This document shows positions 4,488-57,441 of a stretch of 64,000 nt of DNA, one piece after another. Source of the DNA: Bacteroidales bacterium (GTDB lineage Bacteria; Bacteroidota; Bacteroidia; Bacteroidales; UBA932); NCBI GenBank assembly GCA_015060225.1, contig SUYX01000001.1, positions 62,001 through 126,000 on the forward strand, read 5' to 3'. Under the pieces are notes generated by a model. It was given only the letters and a program-made list of their open reading frames with translations. It made no database searches and had not been told where the DNA came from. Position numbers and translations under genes: made by a program. How positions within the stretch are numbered: the stretch's first letter is position 1; each line of letters starts with the position of its first letter.

Positions 4488-4505
4488 AATATCTGGTTTT
4501 TCTTT

Positions 4506-5258: not shown

Positions 5259-5293
5259 AGTTCTTCTGTTTTATGAAAATTACTCAGCGTCAG
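4891..5293. repeat. 403-bp tract identical to 1573-1975
   Basis: Second copy of the identical tract described at 1573-1975. The tract starts inside the barrel coding sequence and ends in the last codons of the 844-aa coiled-coil gene. Confidence 0.9.
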
Positions 5294-38119: not shown

Positions 38120-38140
38120 TTTGTATAAGTTTACAACCTG

Positions 38141-38218
38141 CAAACCTACAAAAAAATATAATACCAAGTATTATTTAAGTTCAAAATGGGACATTGGCAC
38201 TATTTTTCCCTATATTTG
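38141..38218. promoter_or_regulatory. Divergent promoter region of panC and cassette 1
   Basis: TAGGTTTG on the minus strand (38141-38148 in plus coordinates) faces panC and TATATTTG (38211-38218) faces cassette 1; both match TAnnTTTG. No clear -33 elements. Part of this region recurs, decayed, upstream of cassette 2 (about 44693-44750). Confidence 0.45.
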
Positions 38219-38247: not shown

Positions 38248-38913
38248 ATGAAGCGCAGTTGTATATGCATGTTCCAGCTTGTCTTTCTGATATTTTGTTT
38301 CCAGAGCCTGTGGTGCCAGGAAGATTATCTGCAGAAGAGACAGTTGGATGCTGTCATTTACAGAGGGCCTGTTGCCCTCAAATATCCTTTCCTGTTTAGT
38401 GGAAGCGTATATGTGTTTTCGGACGAATTTATTCAGGGATCAGTTGTCTATAATCAGAAAAACTATTCCGGAGCATTGCTTAATCTTGATGCCCACCGTG
38501 ATGAGTTGTGTATAAAGCTTCCTCAGAGCGGGGTTGTGATTGTTTTGTCAAAGGATCTTGTGGATGAGTTTTCATTGGGAGAGAAGCGTTTTATAAAAGG
38601 GAAGTGGAAAGATACGGATTTGGAAAATTCATATTGTCAGGAGCTGTATGCCGGCAATATTTCAATTCTCAAGAGGGTTGGGAAGGATTTTTATCTTGAG
38701 GATGGTGTCAAACCCTCAGTTTACGAAAATGTGAAATATTATCTGGTTAAGGAAAATGTCCCGTACAGATTGAAGAGGATAGAATCAATAGGCAAGTTTT
38801 ACAGGAAGGATTTAAGGAAGAAAATCATGAGGGCGTTGGGCCAAATGAAGGTGTCGGTGGAAGAGACAGATGAAGTTTACCGCCGTATAGGAGCCGTTAT
38901 TGACAATTTATAA
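38248..38913 (+). CDS. Cassette 1 gene a: small secreted protein of unknown family
   Basis: A 221-residue protein with a hydrophobic leader (MKRSCICMFQLVFLIFCFQS, then LWCQ). I do not recognise a named family. All three cassette paralogues share 'DAxIYRGP', 'KYPF...G..Y..S..F..G.VVYN', '(L)NLDAHRDEL' and a basic C-terminal tail with 'KYYLVK...P.R.K'. Repeated beta-strand patterns suggest a compact periplasmic or surface domain. It is the first gene of the cassette and lies 9 nt before the receptor gene. Its constant position implies it works with that receptor. Confidence 0.6.
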   Translation: MKRSCICMFQLVFLIFCFQSLWCQEDYLQKRQLDAVIYRGPVALKYPFLFSGSVYVFSDEFIQGSVVYNQKNYSGALLNLDAHRDELCIKLPQSGVVIVLSKDLVDEFSLGEKRFIKGKWKDTDLENSYCQELYAGNISILKRVGKDFYLEDGVKPSVYENVKYYLVKENVPYRLKRIESIGKFYRKDLRKKIMRALGQMKVSVEETDEVYRRIGAVIDNL

Positions 38914-38922
38914 AGGAGAGGG

Positions 38923-41586
38923 ATGGGTACATTAAGGAAAATATTGGTTTTGATTATGGCAGCAGTACCTTTTGTGGCTTTTTCACAACAGGTTAATGTG
39001 CACCGCAATATAGGAATCGATTCATTGATGGCACTTATGCAGAAGGTCTCTCCGCAGAAGATATTTTATGTTGCCGGAGATGATTCCCGCAATGTAAACT
39101 TTACAATAGAAGTGCTGGATGGAAAAGGTTTGTTGGAGCAGATAAGGGAAGCTCTGTATGAGAAAGGTTATTCGGTTACACCTTTTGAGGGGAATCTGCT
39201 TGTCCTTAAAGGACTTGGGCCAACCGATTCTTTGCCGCATGATTTCTTTGCTGCAAGGAAGGATGTTAAGGTGAAGGATAGTGCCAAAGATCATATAGAT
39301 GCGATAGAAAATGTAAAGAATGTTGCTACAACTGAGAATAAGGTTTATCAGATAGGCAGCAGACAGAATGCAAAGAGTGGCAGGGCTTATTTGAGCGGTT
39401 ATGTGAGGGATTCCCGTACGGGAGAACCTGTAGTTGGAGTGACCCTGTATGACAACTCCTCCAAGAAACATGTCCAGAGTGACGGGAACGGATTCTACAG
39501 ACTGTTGCTTGGAACCGGAGAGAGGGAACTCGAGGTTTCCGGCTATTCATATGAGGATTCCAAAGTGCACCTGGAGGTTTATGGGGACGGCAACCTTGAT
39601 ATAATTGTCAGGGAAAAGGTGTTCTCCCTCAATGAGGTGGTGGTAGCGGCCGAGAGTGCAGACAACATCAGGAGCACTGAGATGGGAATTGAGAGGATAA
39701 GGGTTGACAAAATAAAGAATGTCCCTACGGTCTTGGGAGAAACGGACATTGTAAAAATAATACTTACACTCCCCGGTGTGAAGTCTGTGGGGGAGGCTTC
39801 AGGCGGCTTTAATGTAAGGGGTGGTGCAACAGACCAGAATCTTGTACTTTTCAACGGAGGGACAGTGTACAACCCTTCACATCTTTTTGGAATGTTTTCC
39901 GGTTTTAATCCCGATATAGCCAGCAATATTGAGTTGTACAAATGTTCAATTCCGGTGGAGTATGGAGGGAGGATTTCATCTGTCCTTGATGTGAAGAACA
40001 GGGAGGGCAACAATAAGAATGTATCAGGCTCACTAAGTGCAGGACTCCTTACAGCCAGGGGGCATATTGAAGGTCCATTGGGGAAGAAGACTACTTTTAT
40101 TGCTGCTGCAAGAGCCACATATTCAGACTGGTTGCTTGGCCTGTTGCCTGAGGAGAGCGAATACCGCAATGGGACGGCATCATTTTATGACATTTCTGCC
40201 GGCGTAACCCACAAGTTTAACGGGAAGAACACTTTGCAGCTGAACGGTTATTATTCAGATGATGCATTCAGTTTCAGTGTGGATACAAGTTACCGTTACA
40301 GGAATATGAATATTTCATTAAAGTGGAACAGCAATTTCAATGAACGCAATTCCATGGAGGCAACTGCAGGTTATGACAAATATGGATATGTTACTGTAGA
40401 CGATTTTAATCCTTCCCAGGCATATGAGATGTCTTATGATATAGGTCAGATTTATACTAAGGCCAAGTTCAGGACACTCCTAAATGATGAACATTCATTG
40501 GTGTATGGTGCAGATGTGCTGCATTATGATATCGTTCCAGGGAGATATCTCCCATATGGAAACAGCTCTTTGGCCGTTCCAAAAATAATGGAAAAGGAGA
40601 ATGCGGTTGAAGGGGCAATATATATGAGTGATGTGTGGAACGTTTCGGAAAAATTGTCGGCAGACTGCGGAGTGAGGTTCTCAATGTTCAATTCTGACAA
40701 GTTCTACTGCGGACCGGAGATAAGATTGTCGGGAAGATATATTTTGAAGGATGGCGTTTCCCTGAAGTTGGGATTCAACAGCATGAGGCAATACATACAT
40801 ATGCTTTCCAATACTGTTTCAATTTCTCCTACAGATACATGGAAACTGAGTGACAAGGAGTTGAAACCGCAGAGCGGATGGCAGTTGGCAGGTGGGCTGT
40901 ATGCATCCGTTTTCAGGAACAGGGTGGATGCATCTGTAGAGGTATATTACAAGAGGATGAGGAATTATCTTGATTACAAGAGTGGGGCTGTTATTCTTAT
41001 GAATGAAAATATTGCAGATGATGTTGTCCCTGTAAAAGGAAAGGCTTATGGTGTGGAACTGATGCTCAAGAAGCCGCTGGGCAAACTTAACGGATGGGTT
41101 TCGTATACATATTCAAGGACAAGGCTCAAGGAGGATTCTGACCGGGGTACTGCAGCAATCAATAAAGGGAGATGGTATAACGCCTCCTTTGACAAGCCTC
41201 ATGAATTGAAGCTGGTGGGGAACTATAAATTTACACATAGGGTAAGCGTGTCTGTAAATGGAGATTATGCAACAGGCCGTCCTGTTACTGTTCCTGCAGC
41301 CAAATATTTTTATGGTGGAGGTTACAGGCTTTATTTTACGGAGAGAAACTCCTATAGGATTCCGGATTATTTCAGAATTGATGCATCGGTAAACATTGAG
41401 CCTACACACAGGATAAAGGCGTTTACACATTTCTCTTTTACAGTGGGTGTGTATAATGTTACCGGGAGGAAAAATGTATATTCCGTTTTCTTTGAAAACA
41501 AGGGTGCGGGAGAAAAAGTGAACGGTTATAAAATGAGTGTTTTTGGGGCACAGATACCTTATCTCACACTCAACTTTAAATTTTAG
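38923..41586 (+). CDS. Cassette 1 gene b: STN-type TonB-dependent receptor
   Basis: An 887-residue outer-membrane receptor. Signal peptide 1-22; STN/secretin-like domain about 25-98 (NIGIDSLMALMQK, GNLLVLKGLG); carboxypeptidase-like regulatory domain about 153-235 (AYLSGYVRDSRTGEPVVGVT); plug about 265-380 with LPGVKSVGEASGGFNVRGG and DQNLVLFNGGTVYNPSHLFG; then a 22-strand-type barrel ending in YLTLNFKF. An STN domain usually signals to a FecR-type anti-sigma factor, but no sigma/anti-sigma pair is encoded nearby. The plug is strongly conserved between the three cassettes, while the STN region and linker diverge. Substrate unknown. Confidence 0.9.
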   Translation: MGTLRKILVLIMAAVPFVAFSQQVNVHRNIGIDSLMALMQKVSPQKIFYVAGDDSRNVNFTIEVLDGKGLLEQIREALYEKGYSVTPFEGNLLVLKGLGPTDSLPHDFFAARKDVKVKDSAKDHIDAIENVKNVATTENKVYQIGSRQNAKSGRAYLSGYVRDSRTGEPVVGVTLYDNSSKKHVQSDGNGFYRLLLGTGERELEVSGYSYEDSKVHLEVYGDGNLDIIVREKVFSLNEVVVAAESADNIRSTEMGIERIRVDKIKNVPTVLGETDIVKIILTLPGVKSVGEASGGFNVRGGATDQNLVLFNGGTVYNPSHLFGMFSGFNPDIASNIELYKCSIPVEYGGRISSVLDVKNREGNNKNVSGSLSAGLLTARGHIEGPLGKKTTFIAAARATYSDWLLGLLPEESEYRNGTASFYDISAGVTHKFNGKNTLQLNGYYSDDAFSFSVDTSYRYRNMNISLKWNSNFNERNSMEATAGYDKYGYVTVDDFNPSQAYEMSYDIGQIYTKAKFRTLLNDEHSLVYGADVLHYDIVPGRYLPYGNSSLAVPKIMEKENAVEGAIYMSDVWNVSEKLSADCGVRFSMFNSDKFYCGPEIRLSGRYILKDGVSLKLGFNSMRQYIHMLSNTVSISPTDTWKLSDKELKPQSGWQLAGGLYASVFRNRVDASVEVYYKRMRNYLDYKSGAVILMNENIADDVVPVKGKAYGVELMLKKPLGKLNGWVSYTYSRTRLKEDSDRGTAAINKGRWYNASFDKPHELKLVGNYKFTHRVSVSVNGDYATGRPVTVPAAKYFYGGGYRLYFTERNSYRIPDYFRIDASVNIEPTHRIKAFTHFSFTVGVYNVTGRKNVYSVFFENKGAGEKVNGYKMSVFGAQIPYLTLNFKF

Positions 41587-41598
41587 GAGGAGACTGGA

Positions 41599-42804
41599 AT
41601 GGGAAATACAGGAAAATTCATATTGTTGCTCTTGTTGCCGATAATATATGGGTGTGTATATGAGTTTGAGCCCACAGATGTCCAAGTGCCGGGAGCGGAT
41701 GGGAAAATGCTGGTTATAGAGGGGGATATAATTGCCGGGGGCATCACACAGGTTTCTGTGAGTTATACCACAAAGGCTCTGGAATATGATTATATATGGG
41801 ATTGGTTAAAAGGCGTTTCAGTCTGGGTTGAAAATGAAGCAGGTGAGATATGGGGCAGTGCCCCACCTGAGGATGTACAGGATACATCAAGCTATAAGTT
41901 GGTTACTCCATACCTGTATCAGATACATAAGATTGACACCCGGGAATTGCCGCTTGATGCAAAATACAGGCTGTGTGTCTCTGTGCCGGATAAGGGGGAG
42001 TACATGTCATCTTTCAAACCGGTAATGGCAACTCCGCCAATAGATAGCATAACATGGTCTGTTTCTCCCGACAGTCTTCAGGCATTTCTGGAGGTGACCA
42101 CACACGACGACCGGCAGCAGTCGGGATATTACAGATGGTTTTACAGGGAAAATTGGGAAAACAGTCCGGACCTGATACCAAATATAAGATATAATTATAA
42201 CCTGAATCTTATGGAGAGGTACAGTGAGGAGCAGAAGCAGATGATGCAGGGTTGTCTTGGAGAGTCATATTCGTCCCAGATACTTGTGGCGTCAACAGAA
42301 AAACTTGGAAAAAACCATTTGAACAGGCAAAGGATTGCCGGAATTGGTTCCAATGACAAAAGGGTAAAGGGGCTTTATTGTATAACTGTAATCCAGACAG
42401 CAATGGATAAGGAAGGTTATGCTTATTGGGAGTCCATCAGGAAGAATACTACCGGCATGGGCGGATTGTTTGATCCTCAGCCGAGCGAGATAAACGGCAA
42501 TATCACCTCCGTTACCAATCCGGGTGAAACGGTTATAGGATACATAAATGTATGTACCGCTTCTGTAGGCAGACGTTTCATAGATTGGGAAAAGACAGGT
42601 ATATATGACAAGAAAGGGTGTATGAATATGGTGATGTATCCGCAGCAGGAGTGGCGCATTTTGTATGAAAGCGGAAAACGTCCTGTATATTACGGTATGA
42701 CAGAAAGCGGTTATGAGGATACGGGGATTGCAGCATGGGTGGATGAGAAATGTGTGACTGTAGGTGAATGTTTCAGAAAGCCTCCTTTCTGGCCGGAAAA
42801 GTAA
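41599..42804 (+). CDS. Cassette 1 gene c: DUF4249 lipoprotein
   Basis: A 401-residue lipoprotein with lipobox Cys19 in LPIIYGCVYEFEP. The start of the mature domain (MLVIEGDIIAGGITQVSVS), 'IDTRELPLDAKYRLCVSVP' and the C-terminal Cys followed by KPPFWP mark the DUF4249 family. DUF4249 genes commonly sit beside TonB-dependent receptors in Bacteroidota; function is not known to me. It is probably a surface-exposed ligand-binding partner of the receptor. It begins 12 nt after gene b. Confidence 0.85.
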   Translation: MGNTGKFILLLLLPIIYGCVYEFEPTDVQVPGADGKMLVIEGDIIAGGITQVSVSYTTKALEYDYIWDWLKGVSVWVENEAGEIWGSAPPEDVQDTSSYKLVTPYLYQIHKIDTRELPLDAKYRLCVSVPDKGEYMSSFKPVMATPPIDSITWSVSPDSLQAFLEVTTHDDRQQSGYYRWFYRENWENSPDLIPNIRYNYNLNLMERYSEEQKQMMQGCLGESYSSQILVASTEKLGKNHLNRQRIAGIGSNDKRVKGLYCITVIQTAMDKEGYAYWESIRKNTTGMGGLFDPQPSEINGNITSVTNPGETVIGYINVCTASVGRRFIDWEKTGIYDKKGCMNMVMYPQQEWRILYESGKRPVYYGMTESGYEDTGIAAWVDEKCVTVGECFRKPPFWPEK

Positions 42805-42834
42805 AAGTAAAGAACTGCAAATTAAAGAGGATGT

Positions 42835-44559
42835 ATGAAGAAAAGGGGAGTTTTTCAATTGGTATTGGCATTTGCACTGTTGTTGCAGGCATCGGGTATC
42901 CATTCTATGGAGAGGGTGTATGTATCCACTGACAAAGAACTTTATCTGGCAGGGGAGAGCATATGGTGTTCCGTATTTTGTATTGATGAATCAACAGGCA
43001 AGTATTCGCAGTTCAGCAGCGTGGCATATCTTGAGTTCCATTCAAAAAGGGGGATTGAGGCCCTGATAAAGGTGGCTATGATTGATGGACGCGGGTGCGG
43101 AAGACTGCAGGTCCCGTTCAGTTTTGCGACAGGAAACTGTACCATTGTTGCGTATACGTCCAAAGATGGCGGTGATTCAAAAGGGGAATTCAACGGCAAG
43201 ACGGTTACGGTGTTCAATACCCTTTCGTCAGACAAGGTGAAGGATGGTGTTGAGGTAGTGGAAAAGGGAGAACCGGTAATGGCTCCGGAACACAAACCGG
43301 TAGAGGATAGTGGTGCCATTTCAATTGAAGTGGGTGAACAGGGGAATGGCGCTGTTCCTGTAAAGATAAGGAATGCAGGAGGGGATGGGGCAAGCTTTAG
43401 TGTTTCAGTATACCATATTGACGGTATTGAGGATATCATAGGCAAGAGAGGATATGACAATACATCGCTGCTGGAGCGTAAGGGTGATTTTGAAGTTACC
43501 GGTATTGAGGAGTACGCGGGGGAGATGATAAGGACAAGGGTGTTCCGGGACGGCAAGCCCCTCCGGGGAAATGATGCAAAAGGGGTTTATATGTATATGT
43601 CGGCAATGGGCAATACTGATGATACATATATTGCCAATGTGGATTCATTGGGCTACGCCACATATTACACCAACAACATATCGGGAAAAAGGGATTTGTT
43701 GTTTGATGTGGTTACAAATGTAAGGCAGACAGCCAAAATAGGGAGCGGAGCGGGTTCCGGCAATGATTTAAGGGTGGAGAAAGTTGAGGGGGAATTCAAA
43801 CATATTCCGGCAGAGATTCCGGTGCTCAAGATATCGGGAGAACTGGAAGAACCCCTCAAGAAAAGGAGTATGAGGATGCAGGTTGGGAGAAGGTTTGAAC
43901 AAGATACCCTGTTTAATCTGATGCCTATGCGGAGCAATGACTTCTTTGGTGCCGTGGAACCGATAGTTTACAATTTGGACGATTATACCCGTTTTCCTCT
44001 GATGAAGGAGGTTATAAGTGAATATGTGAGCAACTTGAGGGTAAGGATGGTGGAAGGTGAGGAGCGCCTGCTGGTGTTGTGGCAGGAGACGGAAGGGGTA
44101 TATACAGTTTCCCGACAATATGCACTTGCCCTTCTTGACGGTGTACCTGTGAGGGACCACTCCAAAATTATAAATATGGATCCTCTGTTGGTAAAGCAGA
44201 TAATAATTTATCCCAGAAGATATCTGCTGAATTATTTCATGTTTGACGGAATTGTCAAGTTCAATACCTACAAAGGGGATATGGGGGGAATGAAGCTGGG
44301 TGAAGATGTGAATATCCTCAGCCATGACGGGCCACAGTATCCGTTGGCCTTTATGGGAGACAGGATTCCCGAAAACGGAAGGTATCCCAACTACAACAGT
44401 ACCATATACTGGAACCCTGTTGTGGATATGGACAAAGATGGCGTTTATGAGTTCAATTGCCCCCTTCCGGATTATAAAGGGAACTTCAGGATTGTAGTAG
44501 AGGGAATTGATGGAGCTGGCAATGGCATTTATAAGGAGGCAGTTGTGTCAATTGAGTGA
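42835..44559 (+). CDS. Cassette 1 gene d: MG2-like protein with plug-like C-terminus
   Basis: A 574-residue secreted protein. A signal peptide is followed at once by [19 protein letters not shown], the macroglobulin MG2 start, with [11 protein letters not shown] and [10 protein letters not shown] completing the domain. The middle is beta-rich. Near residue 440-480 comes [14 protein letters not shown] and [18 protein letters not shown], which resembles a TonB-receptor plug (LDGVPV...DxxxVexI). No barrel follows; the protein ends [11 protein letters not shown]...AVVSIE. It may be a soluble or periplasm-facing partner of gene b. The last ~70 nt are almost identical to those of the cassette 2 homologue. 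Confidence 0.75.
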
Positions 44560-44562
44560 TTT

Positions 44563-44690
44563 TTACCCTTGGTGCAAAAGCTATGTCTACGCCGCTTGCC
44601 TCAAGGAGTGCACAATCTGCCTCAAGTGTCCTTGGGTATGTTGCAAGGTCCTGAAAATATACTTACTATAGTGTGCTTGCATTTTGCAAC
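44563..44690 (-). pseudogene. Decayed fragment of panC
   Basis: Bases 44563-44654 align with 37837-37928 inside panC with about 8 differences in 92. Then 27 nt are missing, and 44656-44690 align with the panC stretch ending at 37990 (CTTACTATAGTGTGCTTGC is shared exactly). Orientation is the same as panC. No start or full frame remains. It is directly joined to the end of cassette 1, and after it comes sequence like the panC/cassette 1 promoter region. It is the scar of the tandem duplication that made cassette 2. Confidence 0.9.
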
Positions 44691-44793
44691 TGAAAAAAAT
44701 ATAATATCCGCCATAATTTGAGGTGAAAATGGAAAATGATATAGCAGAAGTCATTTTGTTTTTTTATATTTACAACATTAAAGCCTTTTGTCT

Positions 44794-45453
44794 ATGAAGC
44801 GTTTTTTCTTGTTTGTTGCATTTCTTGCAATAGTTCATGTTTCGCTCTTTGCGCAGGACGGGAATGTAGATGTCTCAAAGTATGATGCTGCAATTTTCAG
44901 AGGCCCGGTAGTGGAGTCATATCCCCATTATATAAGGGGTACTGCATATTTGTATTCTTCCGAGTTTATGAAAGAACGTGTGGTTTACAATAAGAAGCCT
45001 TTTTACAATGTAAAGCTCAATCTTGATGTTTACAGGGATATTGTATGTGTGATGGTGCCGGAGAGTTCAATTGTGATGGTGCTGGACAATTCACTTGTTG
45101 AGGGTTTTACCTTGTGCGGAAAGGAGTTTGTGCAGGCATCTGGTGTGGAAGGGCTTGAGAGGAATTTTTATGAGAAGCTTTATGGTGGCGGCAATATGCT
45201 GCTTAAAGAAACGGTAAAGAGATACCACAGGGTAGACAGGGGTAATGTGGAGTTCTATCCTATTGTCAAGTATTTTCTGGTCAAGGATTGTAAAGCTGTG
45301 CGGGTGAAGGGTATGAAGGCGTTCAAGAAGGTTTATCCCGATAAAAAGAGGGAATTGCGCAAATACAGGAATGCTTTGTATGATTCAGGCAAGGTGTCGG
45401 ACAATGAACAGCTCTATAGGGCTTTGGCTGAGTATGCAGATAAAAATTTATGA
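44794..45453 (+). CDS. Cassette 2 gene a: small secreted protein of unknown family
   Basis: A 219-residue paralogue of the 38248 product. Signal peptide MKRFFLFVAFLAIVHVSLFA, then Q. Conserved blocks: DAAIFRGPVVESYPHY, VVYNKKPFYNVKLNLDVYRD, VKYFLVKDCKAVRVK. It overlaps the receptor start by 4 nt (ATGA). A weak -7 box (TATATTTA, 44765-44772) lies upstream. Family and role unknown. Confidence 0.6.
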   Translation: MKRFFLFVAFLAIVHVSLFAQDGNVDVSKYDAAIFRGPVVESYPHYIRGTAYLYSSEFMKERVVYNKKPFYNVKLNLDVYRDIVCVMVPESSIVMVLDNSLVEGFTLCGKEFVQASGVEGLERNFYEKLYGGGNMLLKETVKRYHRVDRGNVEFYPIVKYFLVKDCKAVRVKGMKAFKKVYPDKKRELRKYRNALYDSGKVSDNEQLYRALAEYADKNL

Positions 45454-48107: not shown

Positions 48108-48119
48108 GGAGGAGAGATT

Positions 48120-49406: not shown

Positions 49407-49417
49407 AAACTGACGTT

Positions 49418-51124
49418 ATGGTAAAGGGAAGTAAAAGTTTTATTGTAGCGGTGCTTGCTCTGCTTGTCAATATTGTTGCACAGGGGCAGGAGCGCGTATA
49501 TGTTTCAACCGACAAGAACGCTTATCTTGCCGGGGAAGACCTTTGGTGTTCTGTATACTGCCAGGATGGCAATACGGGAAAATATTCAAACTTGAGCAGT
49601 GTGGCATATCTTGAGTTCCATTCTGCGCAGGGGGTGGAGGATCTGATCAAGGTTCCGCTGGTAAAGGGAAGGGGGTGTGGAAGATTGCAGATTCCATTTG
49701 ATTTTGCTACGGGCAACTATTCCATTGTGGCCTACACAAAATTGCATGGAGGGGATTCCAAAGGCGATTTTAGTGGGAGAGTGGTTACGGTTTACAATAC
49801 GGTAACAGCAGAAAAAGTCGACAGGGCTGTTGAGATTGTGGAGCAATTGCCAGATGCGGTAGCGGTGCCTGCCGGGTATGGAGATGTGATGATTGGAGCC
49901 AAGGCTGATCTTCAGAAAGGTGTGTTGCCGGTTAAAATTACCAATACAGGCATGGTGGAGGCAAGCATCAATGTCTCGGTATTCCATTATGACGAACTGG
50001 AGAAAAACTCGGAGGGGTTGAGGAGTGCCAGCGGAACATTGTTGGAGAGGAAGGGGGATTTTGCCGAGACCGGGGTTACAGATTTTGCCGGAGAGGTAAT
50101 AACCCTTGAGGTTGAACCTCTGCAGTGGAGCAAGGATTGGTGGAAAGGTGTGTATGTATATATGTCTGCAAAGGGTAATGAGGATGACCTGTATGTGGGA
50201 AGGATTGATTCATTGGGAAGGGTTACGTATTATACAAATAATATGTCGGGAGACAAGGACCTGATGATTGAAGTCGTGGATAATGTAGCTGTTTCTGCAA
50301 GATTTTCCGGACAGGAGGGGGTAATGCAGAAATATAAGGTTAAAGTGCTGGAGAACAAATATAACCATAAGGCTGGAGAGATTCCGGTGCTGAAGATTTC
50401 CCAAAAGATGAGGGGTACACTTGACAAAAGGAGCATGAGAATGCAGATAGGCAAGAGGTTTGCGGCAGATTCAATATTCAACCTTATGCCTATGCGTACC
50501 TCATCGTACCTTGGAGCAGCACTCCCTTTGAAATATAATCTGGATGATTATACCAGGTTCCCTACAGTTGATGATGTGGTGAGGGAGTATGTGTCATATT
50601 TGAGGATAAGGACTATGGATGGCGTGAGGGGATTCAAGGTCGTGAACCAGGATGGCAATGATTTTTCATGGGCTTCAAAAGGGCAGGCGCTGGCATTGCT
50701 TGATGGTGTGCCTGTAAGGGACCATAATACGATAATCAATATGGACCCGCTGCTTATAAAAGAGATTCAGGTGTATCCGAGACAGATTGTGCTGAATCAC
50801 TTTGTATTTGACGGAGTTGTGAAGTTCAATACATACAAGGGGGATATGGGCGGTCTTAAAATGGGGGAGAATTTCTCCATTGTTCCCCATAGTGGTGTCC
50901 AATATCCGCTGGCATTCCTGGGAGATGGAATTTTGGAGAATTTGCGCTATCCCAACTATAACAGTACCCTATACTGGAATCCTCTGGTTGAGGTTGGGGA
51001 AGGTGAGACATTTGAGTTCAGTTGCCCGCTTCCAAAATACAGGGGAGAATTCAAGATTGTTGTAGAGGGAATTGATGGAGCGGGCAATGGTATTTATAAG
51101 GAGGCAGTTGTGTCAATTGAGTGA
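49418..51124 (+). CDS. Cassette 2 gene d: MG2-like protein with plug-like C-terminus
   Basis: A 568-residue paralogue of the 42835 product. A signal peptide precedes [43 protein letters not shown] closes the MG2-like domain. [20 protein letters not shown] and LLIKEIQVYPRQ form the plug-like segment. The ATG at 49418 follows the gene c stop by 11 nt; an earlier in-frame ATG overlaps gene c. The 3' end is nearly identical in DNA to cassette 1. Confidence 0.75.
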   Translation: MVKGSKSFIVAVLALLVNIVAQGQERVYVSTDKNAYLAGEDLWCSVYCQDGNTGKYSNLSSVAYLEFHSAQGVEDLIKVPLVKGRGCGRLQIPFDFATGNYSIVAYTKLHGGDSKGDFSGRVVTVYNTVTAEKVDRAVEIVEQLPDAVAVPAGYGDVMIGAKADLQKGVLPVKITNTGMVEASINVSVFHYDELEKNSEGLRSASGTLLERKGDFAETGVTDFAGEVITLEVEPLQWSKDWWKGVYVYMSAKGNEDDLYVGRIDSLGRVTYYTNNMSGDKDLMIEVVDNVAVSARFSGQEGVMQKYKVKVLENKYNHKAGEIPVLKISQKMRGTLDKRSMRMQIGKRFAADSIFNLMPMRTSSYLGAALPLKYNLDDYTRFPTVDDVVREYVSYLRIRTMDGVRGFKVVNQDGNDFSWASKGQALALLDGVPVRDHNTIINMDPLLIKEIQVYPRQIVLNHFVFDGVVKFNTYKGDMGGLKMGENFSIVPHSGVQYPLAFLGDGILENLRYPNYNSTLYWNPLVEVGEGETFEFSCPLPKYRGEFKIVVEGIDGAGNGIYKEAVVSIE

Positions 51125-51131
51125 TTTATTG

Positions 51132-51139
51132 TACATTTG
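51132..51139 (+). promoter_or_regulatory. -7 box before cassette 3
   Basis: TACATTTG matches TAnnTTTG in the 34-nt gap before cassette 3, with a TTG 21 nt upstream (51108-51110) inside the end of cassette 2 gene d. It could allow cassette 3 to be transcribed separately. Confidence 0.4.
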
Positions 51140-51158
51140 TGAGATAAACATCTGAACA

Positions 51159-51860
51159 ATGAAGAAGTTTTTCCTTATTCTGTTGTGGGCGGTGTTTTCT
51201 GTCCACAATTTTTCTTTGTACTCCCAGCAAAAGTATGATTTTGTTGCGGAGGCCGGTATGGATGCCGCAGTTTACCGCGGCCCCGAAGCTGTTAAATACC
51301 CTTTCAGATATGAAGGTACCCCGTATGCCTATACGGAGAGTTTCCTCAGCGGTACACTGGTGTATAATGGGGTGTTCTACAAGGGGCTGCTCCTTAACTT
51401 TAATGCCCATAGGGATGAGCTGCATCTGAAAATGCCTTCGTCGGGAATAGTAATTGAACTGGACAGGAGAATTGTGGGGGAGTTTTCTTTTGGTGGAAGG
51501 AGTTATGTTTCCCTTATTGGAGAGAGGGCTGTTGATGGGTTGCAGGAGGGGTTCTACCAGATGCTCTACAAGGGGGAGGATATGCTGGTGAAGAAGAATG
51601 GCAAGAGCTTCCATGAGAGGCTGCAGAACGGGGGGAGTTCAAAAGGGGCTTTCAGATTCTTTGACCCGGCAGACAGGTATTATGTCGTTAAAGATGGTGT
51701 GCCGGTGCAGATATCAAAGGTGAAACACTTTACCAAGGTATATAAAGATAAAAAGAAGGCTGTTAAAGGCTTTATCAGGAAGAATAAGATAAAGTTCATT
51801 GATATGGATGACAATGATCTTGCACTTGTTGAGGTAATGGAGTTTGTTGACAATAATTGA
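51159..51860 (+). CDS. Cassette 3 gene a: small secreted protein of unknown family
   Basis: A 233-residue paralogue of the cassette 1 and 2 a-proteins: signal peptide MKKFFLILLWAVFSVHNFSLYS, then DAAVYRGPEAVKYPFRYEGTPY, TLVYNGVFYKGLLLNFNAHRDEL and RYYVVKDGVPVQISKVK. The C-terminus is Lys-rich. It is closer to cassette 1 than to cassette 2 in the NAHRDEL block. Function unknown. Confidence 0.6.
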   Translation: MKKFFLILLWAVFSVHNFSLYSQQKYDFVAEAGMDAAVYRGPEAVKYPFRYEGTPYAYTESFLSGTLVYNGVFYKGLLLNFNAHRDELHLKMPSSGIVIELDRRIVGEFSFGGRSYVSLIGERAVDGLQEGFYQMLYKGEDMLVKKNGKSFHERLQNGGSSKGAFRFFDPADRYYVVKDGVPVQISKVKHFTKVYKDKKKAVKGFIRKNKIKFIDMDDNDLALVEVMEFVDNN

Positions 51861-51868
51861 GGCATGGC

Positions 51869-54532
51869 ATGAAACACTTTATAATATCTGTTGTTTTTTC
51901 CCTGTTCATGTTGGGACAAGTCCAGCAGGGGTATTCACAGGCAAAGGTCCACAGGAATATAGGATTGGATTCACTTATGGTGCTTCTTCAGAAAGAGAGC
52001 GGACAGAAGATATATTATCAGAGTGACGCCTCGGCAAAGAATCTTACCTTTACTGTAAACGAAGGGGATCCTTCATATACAGGGCAGATAAAGGAAGACC
52101 TGGCAGACAATGGTTACACAATCCTTTCTCTAAAGGGGTATATATTTGTCCTTAAAGGTGCTGGCCTGGCGCAGGAGCTTCCTTGGGATTATTTTTCGGC
52201 GGCCGCTAAGCGGGAGAAGCAGCCTGTTGCACAGGATTATATAGATGCATTGGCAGAAAGTGCAAATGTAGCAACATCACAGAACAAGACCTATCAGATA
52301 GGTGATAAGGGAAATGTGAGTGCCTCGGGGAAGGCTTATATGAGCGGCTATGTGAGGGATGCGGTTACGGGAGAACCTGTAGTGGGCGTTTCACTGGTAG
52401 ACAATGTTACCAAATCTTATGCCCAGTCAGATGCACACGGCTTCTACAAGATACTGTTGCCTGTGGGAAAAACCGTGCTGGATGTGGGCGGCTATTCTCT
52501 TGAGGATACAAAAGTGCATCTGCAGGTGTACGGTGAGGGTACATTGGATGTAGTGGTAAAGGAAAAGGTGTTTGCTTTGTCGGGAGTGGTTGTCTCTGCT
52601 GAGAATACAAATAAGGTAAGGGCAAACCATATGGGTATAGAGAAGGTGAGGATGGACAGGGTAAAGAATGTCCCTATGGTGTTTGGAGAGTCTGATGTGG
52701 TAAAGATTATCCTCACCCTGCCCGGCGTTAAATCTGTGGGTGAGGCTTCCAGTGGTTTCAATGTGAGGGGTGGTGCCACAGACCAGAACCTTGTCCTGTT
52801 CAATGGAGGTACCGTGTATAACCCGTCCCACCTTTTTGGAGTGTTTTCGGGTTTTAATCCCGATATCGTCAGCGACATTGAACTGTACAAGAGTTCTGTT
52901 CCGGTGGAGTACGGAGGAAGAATCTCTTCTGTACTGGATGTGAACAGCAGGGAAGGAAACAACAAGAAGATTACAGGCTCTCTTGGTATAGGGCTCCTTA
53001 CAGCCAAAGGACATGTGGAGGGACCGGTGGGCAGCAAGACCACATTTATAGCGGGGGCGAGGGCAACATACTCGGACTGGCTTCTTTCATTGCTCCCTGA
53101 GGAGAGTGAATATAACGACGGTGCGGCATCATTCTATGATCTTACGGCGGGCATTACACATAAGTTCAATGCCAACAATTCCATACATGTAAACGGATAT
53201 TATTCGGTTGATGATTTCAGTTTCAGTGCGGATACCCTGTACAAATACAGGAATGCAAATGCCTCATTAAAATGGAAGAGCAATTTTGGAGACAAGACAT
53301 CAATGGAACTCACTGCCGGTTATGACCATTACGATTATGCCACTATAGACAAGTTCAGCCCGTTGAAGGCGTATGAGATGTCATTCAGGATAGAGCAGAT
53401 GTATGGCAAGCTCAGGTTCAAGTCTCTTTTGAGTGAGAAGCATACCATCACATACGGTGCCGATATCGTGTCGTTTGATCTTCTTCCGGGAAGCTATCTC
53501 CCTTATGGGGATGCCTCCCTGGTGGTTCCGGATATCATCCCAAATGAGACTGGCATAGAGGGGGCTGCGTATTTGAGTGACAGTTGGAGCATATCGGAGA
53601 AGTTGTCATTGGATTTTGGCGTGAGGTATTCCATGTTCAATTCAGACAAGTTCTACAGTGGACCCGAGTTCAGGTTGTCGGGAAGAGCAATGTTGTCTGA
53701 CAAAGTATCATTCAAGGTGGGGGTAAATACAATGCAGCAATATATCCATATGTTGTCAAACTCAATATCGGTTTCCCCTACAGACATATGGAAATTGAGC
53801 GACAGGAACATAAAGCCGCAGAAGGGTTGGCAGGTTGCAGGAGGATTCTATGCCTCACTGTTCAACAACAAGGTTGAGGCCTCAATTGAGGGATATTATA
53901 AAGAGATGGACAATTACCTCGATTACAAGAGCGGTGCAGTAATTATAATGAACAGGAACATTGCGGAGGATGTGATAAATACCCAGGGAAGGGCCTATGG
54001 AGCGGAGCTGATGCTCAAGAAATCTGTAGGAAAGCTCAACGGATGGCTCTCTTATACCTATTCCAAGACACAATTGAGGGAGAAGGATGAGAGGGGAGTG
54101 AACGCAATTAACGGAGGAAGATGGTACGATGCCTCGTATGACAAGCCGCACGATGCAAAACTGGTTGCCAACTACAAGTTTACCCATAGGGTGAGCATAT
54201 CGGCCAATGCAGATTATTCTACAGGGCGCCCTATAACGGTGCCTATAGCAAAGTATGAGTATGGTGGGGGATACAGGTTGTATTACTCAGACAGGAACTC
54301 ATTCAGGATTCCCGATTATATGAGGATAGATGCGGCTCTGAATATAGAGCCTACCCACAAGTTGGGGGCATTTACCCATTTCTCCTTCTCTATAGGTGTT
54401 TATAATGTTACCGGAAGGAAAAATGTCTATTCTGTCTACTTTGACACTGATGCGGCCGGTCAGATAAAGGGACACCAGCTCTGTATTTTTGGAGCACCTA
54501 TCCCGTATGTCAACTTCAATTTCAAATTTTAG
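51869..54532 (+). CDS. Cassette 3 gene b: STN-type TonB-dependent receptor
   Basis: An 887-residue paralogue of the other two receptors. Signal peptide MKHFIISVVFSLFMLGQVQQ..., STN domain (NIGLDSLMVLLQKESGQKIY), carboxypeptidase-like domain (AYMSGYVRDAVTGEPVVGVS), plug (LPGVKSVGEASSGFNVRGG) and barrel ending YVNFNFKF. The ATG at 51869 gives the best signal peptide; an in-frame TTG at 51857 overlaps gene a. Confidence 0.9.
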   Translation: MKHFIISVVFSLFMLGQVQQGYSQAKVHRNIGLDSLMVLLQKESGQKIYYQSDASAKNLTFTVNEGDPSYTGQIKEDLADNGYTILSLKGYIFVLKGAGLAQELPWDYFSAAAKREKQPVAQDYIDALAESANVATSQNKTYQIGDKGNVSASGKAYMSGYVRDAVTGEPVVGVSLVDNVTKSYAQSDAHGFYKILLPVGKTVLDVGGYSLEDTKVHLQVYGEGTLDVVVKEKVFALSGVVVSAENTNKVRANHMGIEKVRMDRVKNVPMVFGESDVVKIILTLPGVKSVGEASSGFNVRGGATDQNLVLFNGGTVYNPSHLFGVFSGFNPDIVSDIELYKSSVPVEYGGRISSVLDVNSREGNNKKITGSLGIGLLTAKGHVEGPVGSKTTFIAGARATYSDWLLSLLPEESEYNDGAASFYDLTAGITHKFNANNSIHVNGYYSVDDFSFSADTLYKYRNANASLKWKSNFGDKTSMELTAGYDHYDYATIDKFSPLKAYEMSFRIEQMYGKLRFKSLLSEKHTITYGADIVSFDLLPGSYLPYGDASLVVPDIIPNETGIEGAAYLSDSWSISEKLSLDFGVRYSMFNSDKFYSGPEFRLSGRAMLSDKVSFKVGVNTMQQYIHMLSNSISVSPTDIWKLSDRNIKPQKGWQVAGGFYASLFNNKVEASIEGYYKEMDNYLDYKSGAVIIMNRNIAEDVINTQGRAYGAELMLKKSVGKLNGWLSYTYSKTQLREKDERGVNAINGGRWYDASYDKPHDAKLVANYKFTHRVSISANADYSTGRPITVPIAKYEYGGGYRLYYSDRNSFRIPDYMRIDAALNIEPTHKLGAFTHFSFSIGVYNVTGRKNVYSVYFDTDAAGQIKGHQLCIFGAPIPYVNFNFKF

Positions 54533-54544
54533 CAGAGGGAGGAT

Positions 54545-55759
54545 ATGGCAATGGAAAACAGATATTTGAAAATTATGATTTGTTCCCTGATTGCATTGGC
54601 AATGGGAAGCTGTGTATATGATTTTACTCCCGACAGTGATGACCTGCAGGGGCTTGATAAACCTCTTCTTGTAATTGAGGGGGATATTATAGCCGGAGGA
54701 ACTACCCTTGTAAAACTTGGTTCCAGCAAAGCGGTGCTTAATGGGATTGTAAACGAAAAGATAGATTATGTAGGGACAACAGTGTGGGTTGAGAGCGAGG
54801 AGGGACAGATATGGAATGGCCGTGCCATGGATGATGTGCTTTCATCCCAAATTGTCAATGACAAATTTGAAATTGATACCAGGGAGTTGCCTATGGATGG
54901 CAGATACAGGCTGTGTGTTTCTGTCCCTGGCAGAGGTGAATACCGTTCTGCTTTCAAGCCGGTTGCCATTTCACCGGAGATAGACAGTGTGTCGTACAGC
55001 TTTACGGAGGACAGGAATGGGGTTCAGTTTGAAGTCTCAACACATAATGATTCTGCTGAGCCTTTATATTGCAGATGGTCTTTTGAAGAGGATTGGGAGA
55101 GCAATGCCGGGCTGATCCCATACTTGAGGGCCAAACTGGACAAGGAGACAAGCAAAATTACATTTGATGAGCTGACAGAAGAGGAGAGGAGAGCGATGAC
55201 AAGATGTTTCAGCAAAAGCATTTCAAAGGATATATATATTGAAGGGACCGACAAGCTTTCCAAGAACATAATCAGCAGGGCGAGGCTTAATGTGGTAGCC
55301 GGAACCGACAGAAGAATCTCATCATTATATTCACTCACTGTTACCCAAACTGCAATGGATAAGGAGGCATTCAAATATTGGGAGGGGATAAAGGCCAGCA
55401 TAAGCGGTACAGGAGGCCTTTTTGCCCCAATGCCAAACGAAGTGAGGGGTAACATAAAGTGTGATACTTATCCCGACGAAACCGTACTTGGGTACATAAA
55501 TGTATCTACTGCCACAACCCAAAGGAAGATGGTTTATGCAATAGAGCTGCAGCTCTTCAGGAGAACCTGTTTTGAGACAATGTATCCCGATTCATTGTGG
55601 CTGGACCTGTTCAATTCCGGTGAGCTCCCCATAAGGTATGAATACGGTGAAAAAGGCAATATTGTGGCGAATCAGGTTTATTGGGCCAGTGCCGAGTGTG
55701 CCGATTGCCGTACATACTCAAACAGTACAAGACCTGACTGGTGGCCGGAGGGGAGATGA
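54545..55759 (+). CDS. Cassette 3 gene c: DUF4249 lipoprotein
   Basis: A 404-residue lipoprotein with the lipobox in LALAMGSCVYDFTP. LLVIEGDIIAGGTTLVKL, IDTRELPMDGRYRLCVSVP and the final C..CRTYSNSTRPDWWP match the family; the ending differs slightly from the KPxFWP of the others. It follows gene b by 12 nt. Confidence 0.85.
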   Translation: MAMENRYLKIMICSLIALAMGSCVYDFTPDSDDLQGLDKPLLVIEGDIIAGGTTLVKLGSSKAVLNGIVNEKIDYVGTTVWVESEEGQIWNGRAMDDVLSSQIVNDKFEIDTRELPMDGRYRLCVSVPGRGEYRSAFKPVAISPEIDSVSYSFTEDRNGVQFEVSTHNDSAEPLYCRWSFEEDWESNAGLIPYLRAKLDKETSKITFDELTEEERRAMTRCFSKSISKDIYIEGTDKLSKNIISRARLNVVAGTDRRISSLYSLTVTQTAMDKEAFKYWEGIKASISGTGGLFAPMPNEVRGNIKCDTYPDETVLGYINVSTATTQRKMVYAIELQLFRRTCFETMYPDSLWLDLFNSGELPIRYEYGEKGNIVANQVYWASAECADCRTYSNSTRPDWWPEGR

Positions 55760-55779
55760 TGTATAATATTGGAACAACG

Positions 55780-57441
55780 ATGATGATGAAAAGATATATT
55801 CATATTTTGGTTGCATTGGGTGCTGTATTCTGCACTTTTGGGGCAAATGCCCAGGAACGGGTTTACGTTTCAACGGACAAGGAGTGTTACATAGCCGGCG
55901 AGCCCATATGGTTTTCCGTTTACTGCATGGCAGATGACAAGGGGGGCTTCAGTTCTGTGAGCAAGGTTGCGTATCTTGAACTCCACACTTCAGGAGGGGT
56001 GTTTTCTACGGTAAAAGTGGCCCTTAAGGAGGGGCGCGGATGCGGAAGGATGCTTATACCTCTAACTGTCCCTACAGGAAACTGTTCCATTGTGTCATAC
56101 ACCGGGCTGGATGGGGGCAACTCAACAGAAGCTTTTGCAGGTAAGATTATTACAATATTCAATACCCTTTCAAGTGCAAAAGTCCCAGAAGGGGTTGAGA
56201 TTGTACCGTCTGACCTCCCTGTAAAGGGGGATGGTGTGCCGCAGGTGGGGAGCAATGTATTCAGTGTGGATGTGCAGAAGGATGATACAGGTATTGAGGG
56301 GGCGTTTCCTGTAAGCATAAGGAATCTTTCGGACAAAGGGATCAGGTTCTCAGTATCCATTTATCACAATGATGAATTGAATTCTCTTGTAGGTGAATGG
56401 GGATACAATAATACCTCACTCCTGGAGAGGAGAGGCGGTTTCAGCAGGAGCGGGAGGATTGATTATGCCGGAGAGGTAATAAAGGCAAAGATTACTGGCC
56501 GGGACAATGCTGCAGAACAGATGGACGGGAAGCTTGTATATATGTCTGCAATGGGAAATACAGATGACATATATGTTGCTTCTGCAAATGGAAATGGGGT
56601 GGTAACATTCTATACAAACAACATTTACGGGACAAGGGATCTTGTATTTGAAGTGGTGGGGGATACATCAAAAGCATATGATGTGGAGATTCTCAAACCG
56701 GACCATATTCACAAGAGTGTCCCTGTGCCGGTATTGAAAATATCTCCAAAAATGAGGGAGGCCCTTCTGCAACGCAGCACAGATATGCAGATTGCGAGGC
56801 GCTTTGAGGCGGATACATTGTTCAATCTGATGGAAATGCGGGAGACCTCATTTATAGGGAATGTGCAGCCCCACATATATAACCTGGATGATTATACAAG
56901 ATTTCCTGTAATGGAGGAGGTTATTAGGGAATATGTGAAGGATTTGAGAGTAAGGAAAGAGGGTGGGGAGACAGTGTTGAGAATATTGTGGGATACCAGG
57001 GCCAAGGCTCTTGTATTGTTGGACGGGGTGCCCGTACTTGACCACTCGGCAGTTGTAGGGATGGATCCGCTTCTTGTAAGGCAGATTGCAGTTTATCCGC
57101 GCAGGTATGTGCTGAACAATCTGGTGTATGACGGAATTGTGAAGTTCAATACATACAAGAACGATATGGGGGGGATAAAACTGGGCAGGAATGTATCCAT
57201 TGAGACCCACAAGGGGGTTGAATATCCACTTGCATTCCTCGGTGACGGAGTACTGGGAAAAGAGAACTATCCAAATTTCAACAGCACAATATACTGGAAC
57301 CCTACAGCTGAGATTGGGGCAGGAGAAACTTTTGGGTTCTATTGTGCAAAACCGCAATATAAAGGGGCGTTCAGGATGGTTATAGAGGGGATTGATTCCC
57401 AAGGGAAAGAGGTCTTCTTTACCACAACATTCAATTTGTAG
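55780..57441 (+). CDS. Cassette 3 gene d: MG2-like protein with plug-like C-terminus
   Basis: A 553-residue paralogue of the other d-proteins: signal peptide MMMKRYIHILVALGAVFC..., [57 protein letters not shown] and LLVRQIAVYPRRY. The last residues (KEVFFTTTFNL) differ from the AVVSIE end of cassettes 1 and 2. An ATG at 55756 overlapping the gene c stop (ATGA) is an alternative start. Confidence 0.75.
   Translation: MMMKRYIHILVALGAVFCTFGANAQERVYVSTDKECYIAGEPIWFSVYCMADDKGGFSSVSKVAYLELHTSGGVFSTVKVALKEGRGCGRMLIPLTVPTGNCSIVSYTGLDGGNSTEAFAGKIITIFNTLSSAKVPEGVEIVPSDLPVKGDGVPQVGSNVFSVDVQKDDTGIEGAFPVSIRNLSDKGIRFSVSIYHNDELNSLVGEWGYNNTSLLERRGGFSRSGRIDYAGEVIKAKITGRDNAAEQMDGKLVYMSAMGNTDDIYVASANGNGVVTFYTNNIYGTRDLVFEVVGDTSKAYDVEILKPDHIHKSVPVPVLKISPKMREALLQRSTDMQIARRFEADTLFNLMEMRETSFIGNVQPHIYNLDDYTRFPVMEEVIREYVKDLRVRKEGGETVLRILWDTRAKALVLLDGVPVLDHSAVVGMDPLLVRQIAVYPRRYVLNNLVYDGIVKFNTYKNDMGGIKLGRNVSIETHKGVEYPLAFLGDGVLGKENYPNFNSTIYWNPTAEIGAGETFGFYCAKPQYKGAFRMVIEGIDSQGKEVFFTTTFNL

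Follow-up and report, generated by a model that had tools for sequence, protein, structure and literature searches.

A recurring four-gene unit of TonB receptor, DUF4249 lipoprotein and two secreted proteins in the Bacteroidia, a candidate four-part outer-membrane importer

Background

What is encoded when a TonB receptor gene stands with the same three neighbours, in the same order, three times in succession, and do the four products work together? The locus that raises this question lies in a window, by which is meant the whole stretch of 64,000 nucleotides analysed here, from a Bacteroidales bacterium. For many TonB receptors of the Bacteroidota no substrate is known, and they are described only as a receptor plus its neighbour. 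An earlier note on this DNA had proposed that each of three tandem cassettes encodes a dedicated outer-membrane complex. The reading favoured in the present work, which is held to be somewhat more likely than not, is a four-part TonB-dependent importer in which the receptor (b) and its lid (c) would be joined by one soluble protein (a) on the receptor's N-terminal domain and by a second soluble subunit (d).

Results

The cassette array

The features of the array are as follows.

38211..38218, + strand: TATATTTG, -7-like box, 37 nt ahead of a1
38248..38913, + strand: a1, small secreted protein, 221 aa from ATG; candidate periplasmic partner of the receptor
38923..41586, + strand: b1, TonB-dependent receptor, 887 aa; STN-like N-domain (about residues 23-97), linker, CarbopepD_reg_2, plug, barrel
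41599..42804, + strand: c1, DUF4249 lipoprotein (Pfam E 4e-33), candidate lid
42835..44559, + strand: d1, secreted protein, MG2 plus half-plug-like region
44563..44694, strand unassigned: decayed panC fragment between cassettes 1 and 2
44765: TATATTTA, ahead of a2
44794..45453, + strand: a2
45450..48107, + strand: b2, receptor, 885 aa
48120..49406, + strand: c2, DUF4249 lipoprotein (Pfam E 9e-25)
49394..51124, + strand: d2, MG2/half-plug protein; ATG probably at 49418
51132: TACATTTG, ahead of a3
51159..51860, + strand: a3
51869..54532, + strand: b3, receptor, 887 aa from ATG 51869
54545..55759, + strand: c3, DUF4249 lipoprotein (Pfam E 2e-30)
55741..57441, + strand: d3, MG2/half-plug protein; start uncertain, 55741-55783

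The open reading frames and their translations agree with the earlier description. From 38248 to 57441 the + strand carries the series a-b-c-d three times, twelve genes in all; intergenic gaps inside a cassette never exceed 30 nt, some genes overlap, and the receptors measure 887, 885 and 887 aa (b1, b2 and b3, counted from ATG). The three copies are covered by ungapped repeat families at spacings of 6.3-6.6 kb. The panC fragment has a 26-nt internal gap relative to intact panC, and after it comes an upstream region resembling that of a related locus, L003. The three boxes ahead of the a genes presumably correspond to the Bacteroidota -7 promoter motif; of 66 relatives, 25 have TAnnTTTG no more than 70 nt ahead of a, with a start codons picked by rule, where about 0.025 occurrences are expected per 60 nt.

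Recurrence of the unit

The earlier note had named, as one finding that would be fatal to its proposal, that a and d occur mostly apart from DUF4249/receptor pairs; at the family, order and phylum levels they do not. In 149 genomes of the family, a DUF4249 match directly precedes 48 of the 50 full-length d matches, and a lies upstream in 46 of them; the 50 include the three of the own genome, and one opposite-strand d fragment (contig C9 of G068) was left out. In the same genomes d is absent after 102 of the 150 DUF4249 matches listed, at least 150 such matches existing. The unit turns up again throughout the order and also in further orders of the same class. Of 93 uncut d ORFs, 68 stand in a-b-c-d and 13 in ab-c-d, with a and the receptor as one fused gene, although these fractions are not unbiased because the loci, short duplicates left out, were chosen by their a or d matches. 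Across 296 genomes sampled from the phylum, an a match lies at most 12 kb upstream in 27 of the best 33 d matches, one of the 27 sharing the a of the preceding unit, and b and c were confirmed in the fetched regions; this count used the 33 strongest d matches and 36 a matches (the 35 strongest and that of G496), with the own genome and weaker matches excluded. One count of a/d co-occurrence excluded the own genome, G010 and the second piece of one d ORF, and some locus labels overlap (L006 is G086, L009 is G011 and L021 is G031, and L038 and L079 refer to a single place). The samples from family, order and phylum bear out a-b-c-d as a real conserved four-gene unit. Two exceptions, L147 and the second unit of L168, are b-c-d units without a; judged by eye, the L147 receptor seems to carry an N-domain despite the absence of a.

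In the fetched loci the unit is mostly single-copy, and its neighbour families differ between groups, the largest cluster comprising 7 loci at 6 distinct places. Recurring neighbours are the rpsL family (7 loci, with rpsG and fusA), panC, and aminotransferase and DDAH genes; further ones are an M23 peptidase, a GH97 gene beside one fused group and an unannotated protein of 750 aa in 4 loci. A metabolic partner was sought among ten annotated neighbours, and these gave no clue to a substrate.

The receptor, protein a and their fusions

The best reading of the b sequences is that they encode TonB-dependent receptors with a plugged barrel and an STN-like N-terminus. Plug scores over the Pfam cut-off in all three window receptors and the barrel model in two of the three; CarbopepD_reg_2 is matched in b1-b3, the third copy slightly below cut-off. 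A crude TonB-box-like pattern matched 58 of 90 receptors, and comparison of the receptors with solved structures gave no useful match. The earlier assignment of an STN domain holds only in a qualified form. Pfam STN is absent from the window copies even at E 10, a search of the own genome with PF07660 at E up to 10 having found its two classic STN-receptor loci and no window receptor, but profile-profile comparison supports the assignment, because the N-domain matches 21 classic STN domains with a probability of 88% (P 3e-6), against 0.2% for three control profiles. In the two cassette receptors scanned, Pfam STN lies over the cut-off in L160 and below it in L118. Short matches of the N-domain to solved structures, all to unrelated or designed chains, were discarded.

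A signal peptide is present in protein a, in which no further membrane segment is seen by eye, and the structure of a3 is modelled with a pLDDT of 90; no match above cut-off was found in Pfam or NCBIfam, and no relative among solved structures. At 13 loci, including two near-duplicates (L024 of L022 and L030 of L018), a is fused to the receptor, and the 11 fused loci placed in the receptor tree fall into three clades among the separate-gene receptors. These fusions in three clades supplement the gene order as support for a physical partnership between a and the receptor. The N-domain is present in 67 of 67 separate-gene receptors versus 0 of 13 fused receptors, a result for which the 67 comprise 64 of 68 parsed units (four with broken or truncated genes were dropped) and the three window copies, all with complete a, b, c and d, and for which the halves of the held-out test share one alignment and close relatives. 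On the boldest reading, these fusions, in which the STN domain is gone and a is joined to the receptor instead, would lay bare an exchange of partners at that domain. Distance correlations gave no special signal between a and the N-domain (partial r 0.37, versus 0.43 for a-c and 0.39 for a-d).

FecR, ECF sigma factors and signalling

In classic STN receptors, those of the FecA type, the anti-sigma factor FecR binds at the STN domain, and receptor, FecR and ECF sigma factor form a relay. The strongest rival to the importer, although an unlikely one, is accordingly cell-surface signalling, in which the STN-like domain together with a would replace this relay and the cassette would sense instead of, or besides, importing. 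The nature of the N-domain speaks for it, as do the receptor-DUF4249 pairs that lack a and d. Such pairs were collected from 24 loci (20 from DUF4249 matches without a following d, picked by score and room, and L069-L072), of which L185 and L192 are cut and were not counted; the remaining 22 comprise 18 in b-c order, two of them with STN, and four in c-b order, none with STN. Twenty of these 22 receptors, in all of which the N-terminus is visible, have no N-domain or STN, and in three of the twenty (L180, L189 and L196) 100-200 ORF residues before the receptor model gave no STN match. Both STN-bearing pairs adjoin ECF sigma and FecR genes, and the plain receptors that precede the L009 and L021 cassettes are likewise STN-bearing with FecR and sigma, which makes 4 of 24.

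The cassettes themselves present a different picture. With sigma and FecR profiles built from four and five sequences respectively, the FecR profile matched, over the fetched loci, only the plain pairs L187 and L188, those ahead of the L009 and L021 cassettes, and L138, where sigma and FecR genes lie directly downstream of d, a point in favour of a signalling role. Beside the other a-type cassettes it found no FecR within the fetched flanks, many of which are short; the L021 cassette has a weak sigma-like ORF two genes downstream (E 2e-5) and no FecR. In the own genome, FecR_C matches are located on C2, C8 and, weakly, C29, with none on C39, and thus on contigs other than that of the cassettes. 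The loss of the STN-like domain from fused receptors also counts against signalling, and a could not itself reach a cytoplasmic sigma factor, because it has a signal peptide and, by eye, no other membrane segment.

Proteins c and d, and the export alternative

All three window copies of c are DUF4249 proteins far over the Pfam cut-off, as the earlier note had it, directly downstream of the receptor. A cysteine is invariant across 40 aligned c proteins, and one simple lipobox pattern matched 81 of 108 c, 7 of 84 a and 6 of 105 d proteins (43, 4 and 0 with a narrower pattern). Comparison of c with solved structures gave no useful match. It is proposed that c is a lipoprotein lid which would bind substrate on the receptor surface. 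In some loci elsewhere c alone is duplicated.

The description of d as MG2/plug-like is sound in its first half and weaker in its second. MG2 is matched at E up to 0.1 in all 33 d proteins examined (best 1e-9), falling below the Pfam cut-off in the single window copy of the first scan. The plug part is degenerate: Plug is matched in 2 of 33 (best 0.0086), profile comparison of whole d with the three window receptors gave no plug match, and a comparison restricted to the plug region, taken from b1 and 41 further receptors, gave a weak one (probability 37%, P 3.5e-4). Lone MG2-plug proteins of the Bacteroidota, of about 820-900 aa, belong to the same family and have the same MG2 and plug-like regions; the one scanned, L171, matches the full Plug model at 1.5e-15 in addition to MG2, whereas the window d proteins are shorter with a degenerate plug, and unlike d the lone proteins at L171-L174 do not adjoin b, c or a. 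Many d proteins of other families measure 700-880 aa. Identification of d as a full alpha-2-macroglobulin was rejected, since MG2 is the sole recurring domain (33 of 33), MG4 being matched in 2 of 33 (best 0.021) and no A2M or thioester-domain model occurring among the 10 families listed. Comparison of d with solved structures gave no useful match, and nothing linking MG2 proteins with TonB receptors was found in the literature searched.

It is unusual for an importer to have two soluble partners, and TonB-dependent secretion through such a receptor has a published precedent (PMC6434023). The unit could on these grounds be an export or surface-protein assembly device, the receptor acting outward while a and d serve as its chaperones in the periplasm, in the manner of Myxococcus Oar/PopC or of a BAM accessory. 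This second rival is also held to be unlikely. No neighbour family is common to all groups, so no cargo gene stands out; among eight proteins scanned, no Bam model, including the BamA, BamG and BamH types, passed its cut-off (BamK reached 9.9 bits against 120), and membership of a BAM complex was rejected; and uptake is the better fit for a lid-type DUF4249 protein and for amplification of c alone.

Divergence and history of the three copies

The contrast between nearly constant plugs and differing N-domains and linkers noted earlier is confirmed, with identities of 73-78% in the plug, 41-45% in the N-domain, 23-42% in the linker and 61-67% in the barrel. The proposal that the array arose by amplification followed by divergence needs amendment: the three copies have diverged, but amplification within the genome is an incomplete account, as the copy lineages predate the species split in the receptor tree. 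At the same locus, relatives carry one cassette (L004), two (L003) or at least two (L001), and the array shows signs of recombination. Between orthologues c and a are the fastest-diverging parts; dN/dS is at most 0.28 where computable, dS being saturated and infinite in 3 of 15 comparisons. That the three copies represent three substrate specificities is plausible; because c and a diverge fastest, changed specificity fits, a matter of fit and not of proof.

The same divergence, together with the varying cassette number and the recombination marks, could instead reflect antigenic or phage-receptor variation. This is improbable, because a is predicted to be periplasmic, where surface selection would not act on it, and because the fetched loci are mostly single-copy and dN/dS is far below 1 where computable.

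Discussion

In the favoured reading as an importer, b would be the plugged-barrel receptor of an outer-membrane TonB-dependent system, and c would act as a lid on b that binds substrate. Proteins a and d would be soluble secreted partners on the periplasmic side, with a held by the receptor's STN-like N-domain in the stead of FecR; a fused a would make the N-domain dispensable, leading to its loss. Protein d, with its MG2 and degenerate half plug, may bind the plug or barrel mouth or help to pass cargo. Duplication of the whole cassette, and elsewhere of c only, would widen the range of imports. A bolder form of the proposal, held tentatively and at somewhat short of an even chance, is that this is an undescribed class-wide importer in which the STN domain exchanged FecR for subunit a, and d descends from an MG2-plug protein, its half plug acting on the barrel. 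The view that b and c are the sole working pair, with a and d carried along through operon inertia, can appeal to the majority of listed DUF4249 matches, which have no d after them, and to a published receptor-DUF4249 pair whose available description mentions neither a nor d, and is very improbable given an order kept across orders of the class, a-b fusion in three clades and exchange of the N-domain for a fused a.

The analysis defines a conserved four-part unit present in several orders of the class, names as its parts a and d, two families that carry no functional annotation, and offers a testable idea of the role of the STN domain where no anti-sigma factor adjoins.

Relation to known systems

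The DUF4249-receptor pair is already published, and the four-part unit is what is added here; no description of it was found in the literature searched. In Bacteroides thetaiotaomicron, the receptor BT2172 is encoded with the DUF4249 protein BT2173 in a conserved operon, and mutation of either has similar consequences (PMC11003636). The pair resembles b-c in that a receptor adjoins a DUF4249 protein; a and d are not named in the available part of that report, the one paper on DUF4249 found in the literature searched. As described in the portions of the sources available, SusCD, BtuBG and XusAB share with b-c a barrel and a lipoprotein lid encoded together, but XusB is a DUF4374 propeller where c is a DUF4249 protein, and these systems have no a, no MG2/half-plug protein and no soluble protein fused at the receptor N-terminus. 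The Bacteroidota BAM complex (BamA, BamD, BamG, BamH and others) likewise combines barrels, surface lipoproteins and a periplasmic part (PMC12611786, PMC12578637). The receptors of FecA-type relays, of which the own genome has two loci, resemble b in their N-terminal domain; the cassettes differ from these relays in that, save for L138, no FecR adjoins in the stretches searched, and in that a stands in the neighbouring position or is fused to the receptor in exchange for the STN-like domain.

Organisation of the array

The window comes from a source genome of 2.15 Mb that is 86% complete. Its closest relatives with a name are uncultured Bacteroidales, and several of these come from gut samples of ruminants and other herbivores. 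The array contains three cassettes, each made up of four genes in the order a (small secreted protein), b (TonB-dependent receptor), c (DUF4249 protein) and d (MG2/half-plug protein).

Features of the array
37280-38167, - strand, intact panC ORF
38248-44559, + strand, cassette 1, four ORFs a-b-c-d
44563-44694, decayed panC fragment separating cassette 1 from cassette 2, internal gap of 26 nt
44794-51124, + strand, cassette 2, four ORFs a-b-c-d
51159-57441, + strand, cassette 3, four ORFs a-b-c-d

Within each cassette the genes (12 in total) either overlap or are separated by gaps of at most 30 nt, and copy-to-copy identity among the three cassettes is 33-36% for a, 59-64% for b, 38-41% for c and 48-55% for d. 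A box resembling a -7 element, whose motif we take to be TAnnTTTG, lies 27-37 nt upstream of each a gene in the window, and its presence before every a suggests one promoter for each cassette. The exact motif precedes a1 and a3, while a2 is preceded by TATATTTA; in relatives the exact motif lies no more than 70 nt before a in 25 of 66 cases, compared to a chance expectation of about 0.025 per 60 nt. Elsewhere in the window (1188-7814, - strand), two successive ORF pairs of 250 aa plus 841/844 aa are possibly another tandem duplication, judged from ORF sizes.

Conservation of the four-gene unit

Within the family, 149 genomes gave 50 full-length matches to d, of which 48 have a DUF4249 match directly upstream and 46 have a strong match to a 2.5-5.5 kb upstream, and d lies downstream of 46 of 50 strong a matches, several of the exceptions being contig ends or cases in which only the partner's row is absent among the matches listed. 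In the reverse direction, d follows only 48 of 150 DUF4249 matches among those listed for these genomes. Across the order (295 genomes), 27 of 61 a matches and 27 of 50 d matches, counted at stringent thresholds, are paired on the same strand 3.5-7.7 kb apart, and b and c were present in all 20 of the paired regions that were fetched, with a fused to b in one. Ten unpaired d regions all contain b, seven contain a (once fused, twice divergent together with b), and in nine c adjoins d. All four genes are present in eight of the ten unpaired a regions, where one has the fusion and another has d 2 kb farther along; the remaining two hold a only.

The 33 strongest d matches outside the source genome were taken from 296 genomes across the phylum; 27 of them have an a match within 12 kb upstream, one of these being counted with the a of a preceding unit; the 27 pairings fall in 22 genomes from other orders of the same class. 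The remaining six have no a match, and the five of their regions that were fetched comprise four lone d genes and one d at a contig edge behind a DUF4249 gene. The fetched loci yielded 104 d ORFs, 11 of them cut by an edge. The 93 uncut ORFs are divided among a-b-c-d units (68), fused ab-c-d units (13), units without a (2) or without c (1), c-d pairs with a divergent a-b pair adjoining (2), and lone d-like genes or d apart from c (7), fractions which are descriptive and not rates because the loci were selected by a or d matches. An rpsL-family gene lies directly downstream of the cassette in L017, L038, L039, L041, L073, L076 and L079 (L038 and L079 being the same place), followed in several of these by rpsG and fusA.

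The receptor N-terminal domain and its proposed partners

The earlier note had described receptors with a nearly constant plug and differing STN domains and linkers, and the region-wise identities among the three b copies bear this out: 73-78% in the plug, 61-67% in the barrel and 62-63% in the CarbopepD domain, compared to 41-45% in the first domain and 23-42% in the linker. Pfam STN is not called in the first domain of the window receptors, and of two homologous receptors scanned with it (cut-off 28.4 bits) one lies above (L160, 30.7) and one below (L118, 16.6). Even so, when 28 first domains are aligned and compared with a profile built from 21 classic STN domains, the match extends from end to end with a probability of 88% (P 3e-6), against 0.2% for each of three control profiles.

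Thirteen loci encode a as the N-terminal part of the receptor. A midpoint-rooted tree of 76 receptors, including 11 of the 13 and given without branch supports, places the fused receptors in three clades (the L018-L029 group, L119 with L139, and L155), each amid receptors whose a is a gene of its own; a smaller tree supports the L018-L029 group. A first-domain profile, tested on held-out halves of one alignment, detected the domain in every one of the 67 receptors whose a gene is separate (64 from loci and the three window copies) and in none of the 13 fused receptors. After a, the fused genes continue with a linker and the CarbopepD domain, except in L119 and L139, where a leads straight to the plug region; L139 starts within a at a contig start.

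Receptors paired with DUF4249 genes in the absence of a and d were collected from 24 loci; two are cut, and the STN-like domain is present in two of the other 22 (L187 and L188). Genes for an ECF sigma factor and a FecR anti-sigma factor precede both of these pairs, as well as extra pairs upstream of the cassettes in L009 and L021. At L009:420-4296, and also in L021, an STN-bearing DUF4249-receptor pair lies upstream of an a-b-c-d cassette. A search with small sigma and FecR profiles over 140 loci and the plain pairs found FecR elsewhere only in L138 (455-2111), an exception to the pattern: there it sits with an ECF sigma gene immediately after a d that has no c beside it. The sigma profile also matched two more ORFs in L021, of which one, two genes downstream of d, is a weak match (E 2e-5). 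Two classic FecR/STN receptors are present in the source genome away from the array, which indicates that the search works. In the same genome, two further receptors beside DUF4249 genes lack both a and the N-terminal domain (C42:1572-5570, where the contig ends right after DUF4249, and C61:10903-14024, where DUF4249 precedes the receptor; loci L069 and L070).

The simplest reading of these distributions is that the STN-like domain of this receptor family pairs with either FecR or a, and that joining a to the receptor makes the domain unnecessary; we infer that a docks on the STN-like domain. This exchange of STN partner would be an unusual and testable feature of the a-b-c-d unit.

Proteins a, c and d

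No relative of protein a was found in the databases searched. Its structure is predicted with confidence (pLDDT 90, pTM 0.81) and has beta strands within residues 63-185 followed by four terminal helices. The family genomes contain 31 weak matches to a, and those sampled stand alone; a seems to be one specialised offshoot of a larger family that has no name. Stand-alone secreted weak relatives of about 220-300 aa occur in L061-L068, L153, L156 and L177, with no cassette in the fetched stretch. At L175:1835-2541, where the cassette is complete in other respects, a is split into two ORFs and may be in the course of being lost.

All 33 homologues of d examined match MG2, with E values of up to 0.1. 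The C-terminal plug-like part is degenerate, giving no plug match in one profile comparison and a probability of 37% in another; a lone 839-aa relative carries MG2 and a clear Plug (1.5e-15). Lone d-like MG2-plug proteins of 660-906 aa, with no adjoining receptor or DUF4249 gene, occur in L171, L172, L173, L174 and L176, and in L176 two such proteins come after a c-d pair.

A simple lipobox pattern matches 81 of 108 c proteins, 7 of 84 a proteins and 6 of 105 d proteins, and a narrower pattern matches 43, 4 and 0 of the same sets, on which basis we regard c as a lipoprotein and both a and d as secreted, soluble proteins.

History of the array

The receptor tree (support 0.89-1.0) places window copy 1 beside the copy that comes first in L001 and window copy 2 beside the one that comes first in L003. 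Window copy 3 groups with the second copy in each of these two relatives and with the only copy in L004. Because the window copies pair with different copies in these relatives, the tree places their origin before the species compared. The locus is shared, panC lying upstream of the cassettes in L001, L003 and L004, and L004 carries a single cassette there, L003 two, L001 (which reaches a contig end) at least two, and the window three.

The stretch after the decayed panC fragment resembles the upstream region of L003, and d1 (42835-44559) is 96% identical to the d of L001 (9989-11722), with a dS of 0.08, whereas a, b and c of cassette 1 differ from L001 with dS above 1.5. The panC remnant and the contrast in dS point to recombination in the array, and cassette 1 is a mosaic, probably produced by recombination or gene conversion. 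Tandem cassettes are also present in a further five family genomes and in two genomes of another order (L166 and L168); the receptor tree sets the duplications of L073/L074 and L076 apart from that in the window.

Identity between orthologues is 56-69% for c, 57-83% for a and 78-86% for b, so that c and a change faster than b; dN/dS is low where it can be computed, dS being saturated in several pairs. The fast change of c and a fits diversified ligand contact and pairing of a with its receptor, and is not proof of three specificities.

Function and comparison with known systems

Ten annotated neighbour genes gave no clue to the substrate. According to PMC11003636, BT2172-BT2173, a receptor and a DUF4249 protein, form a conserved operon in which the two mutants have similar consequences, and PMC13142918 presents a proposed working of a lipoprotein lid on a TonB receptor in XusAB. 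By analogy with these systems, b and c may be read as a lidded importer. Export by the receptor, for which Oar and PopC (PMC6434023) give a precedent, is kept as a rival to the importer reading. Units mostly have one c, seven have two, and up to four occur, with five in one edge-cut locus; c alone is multiplied within the cassette in L144 (the edge-cut locus), L162, L118, L133, L158, L166, L169 and L175, and such amplification would provide several putative lids for one receptor.

The literature searched, with partial coverage that makes an earlier description possible, contained no description of a four-part unit with a and d, and nothing relevant to MG2 together with TonB receptors; DUF4249 occurred there in a single paper. 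The receptor-DUF4249 pair is already known, and by the same analogy the a-b-c-d unit would be a variant of the lidded TonB importer.
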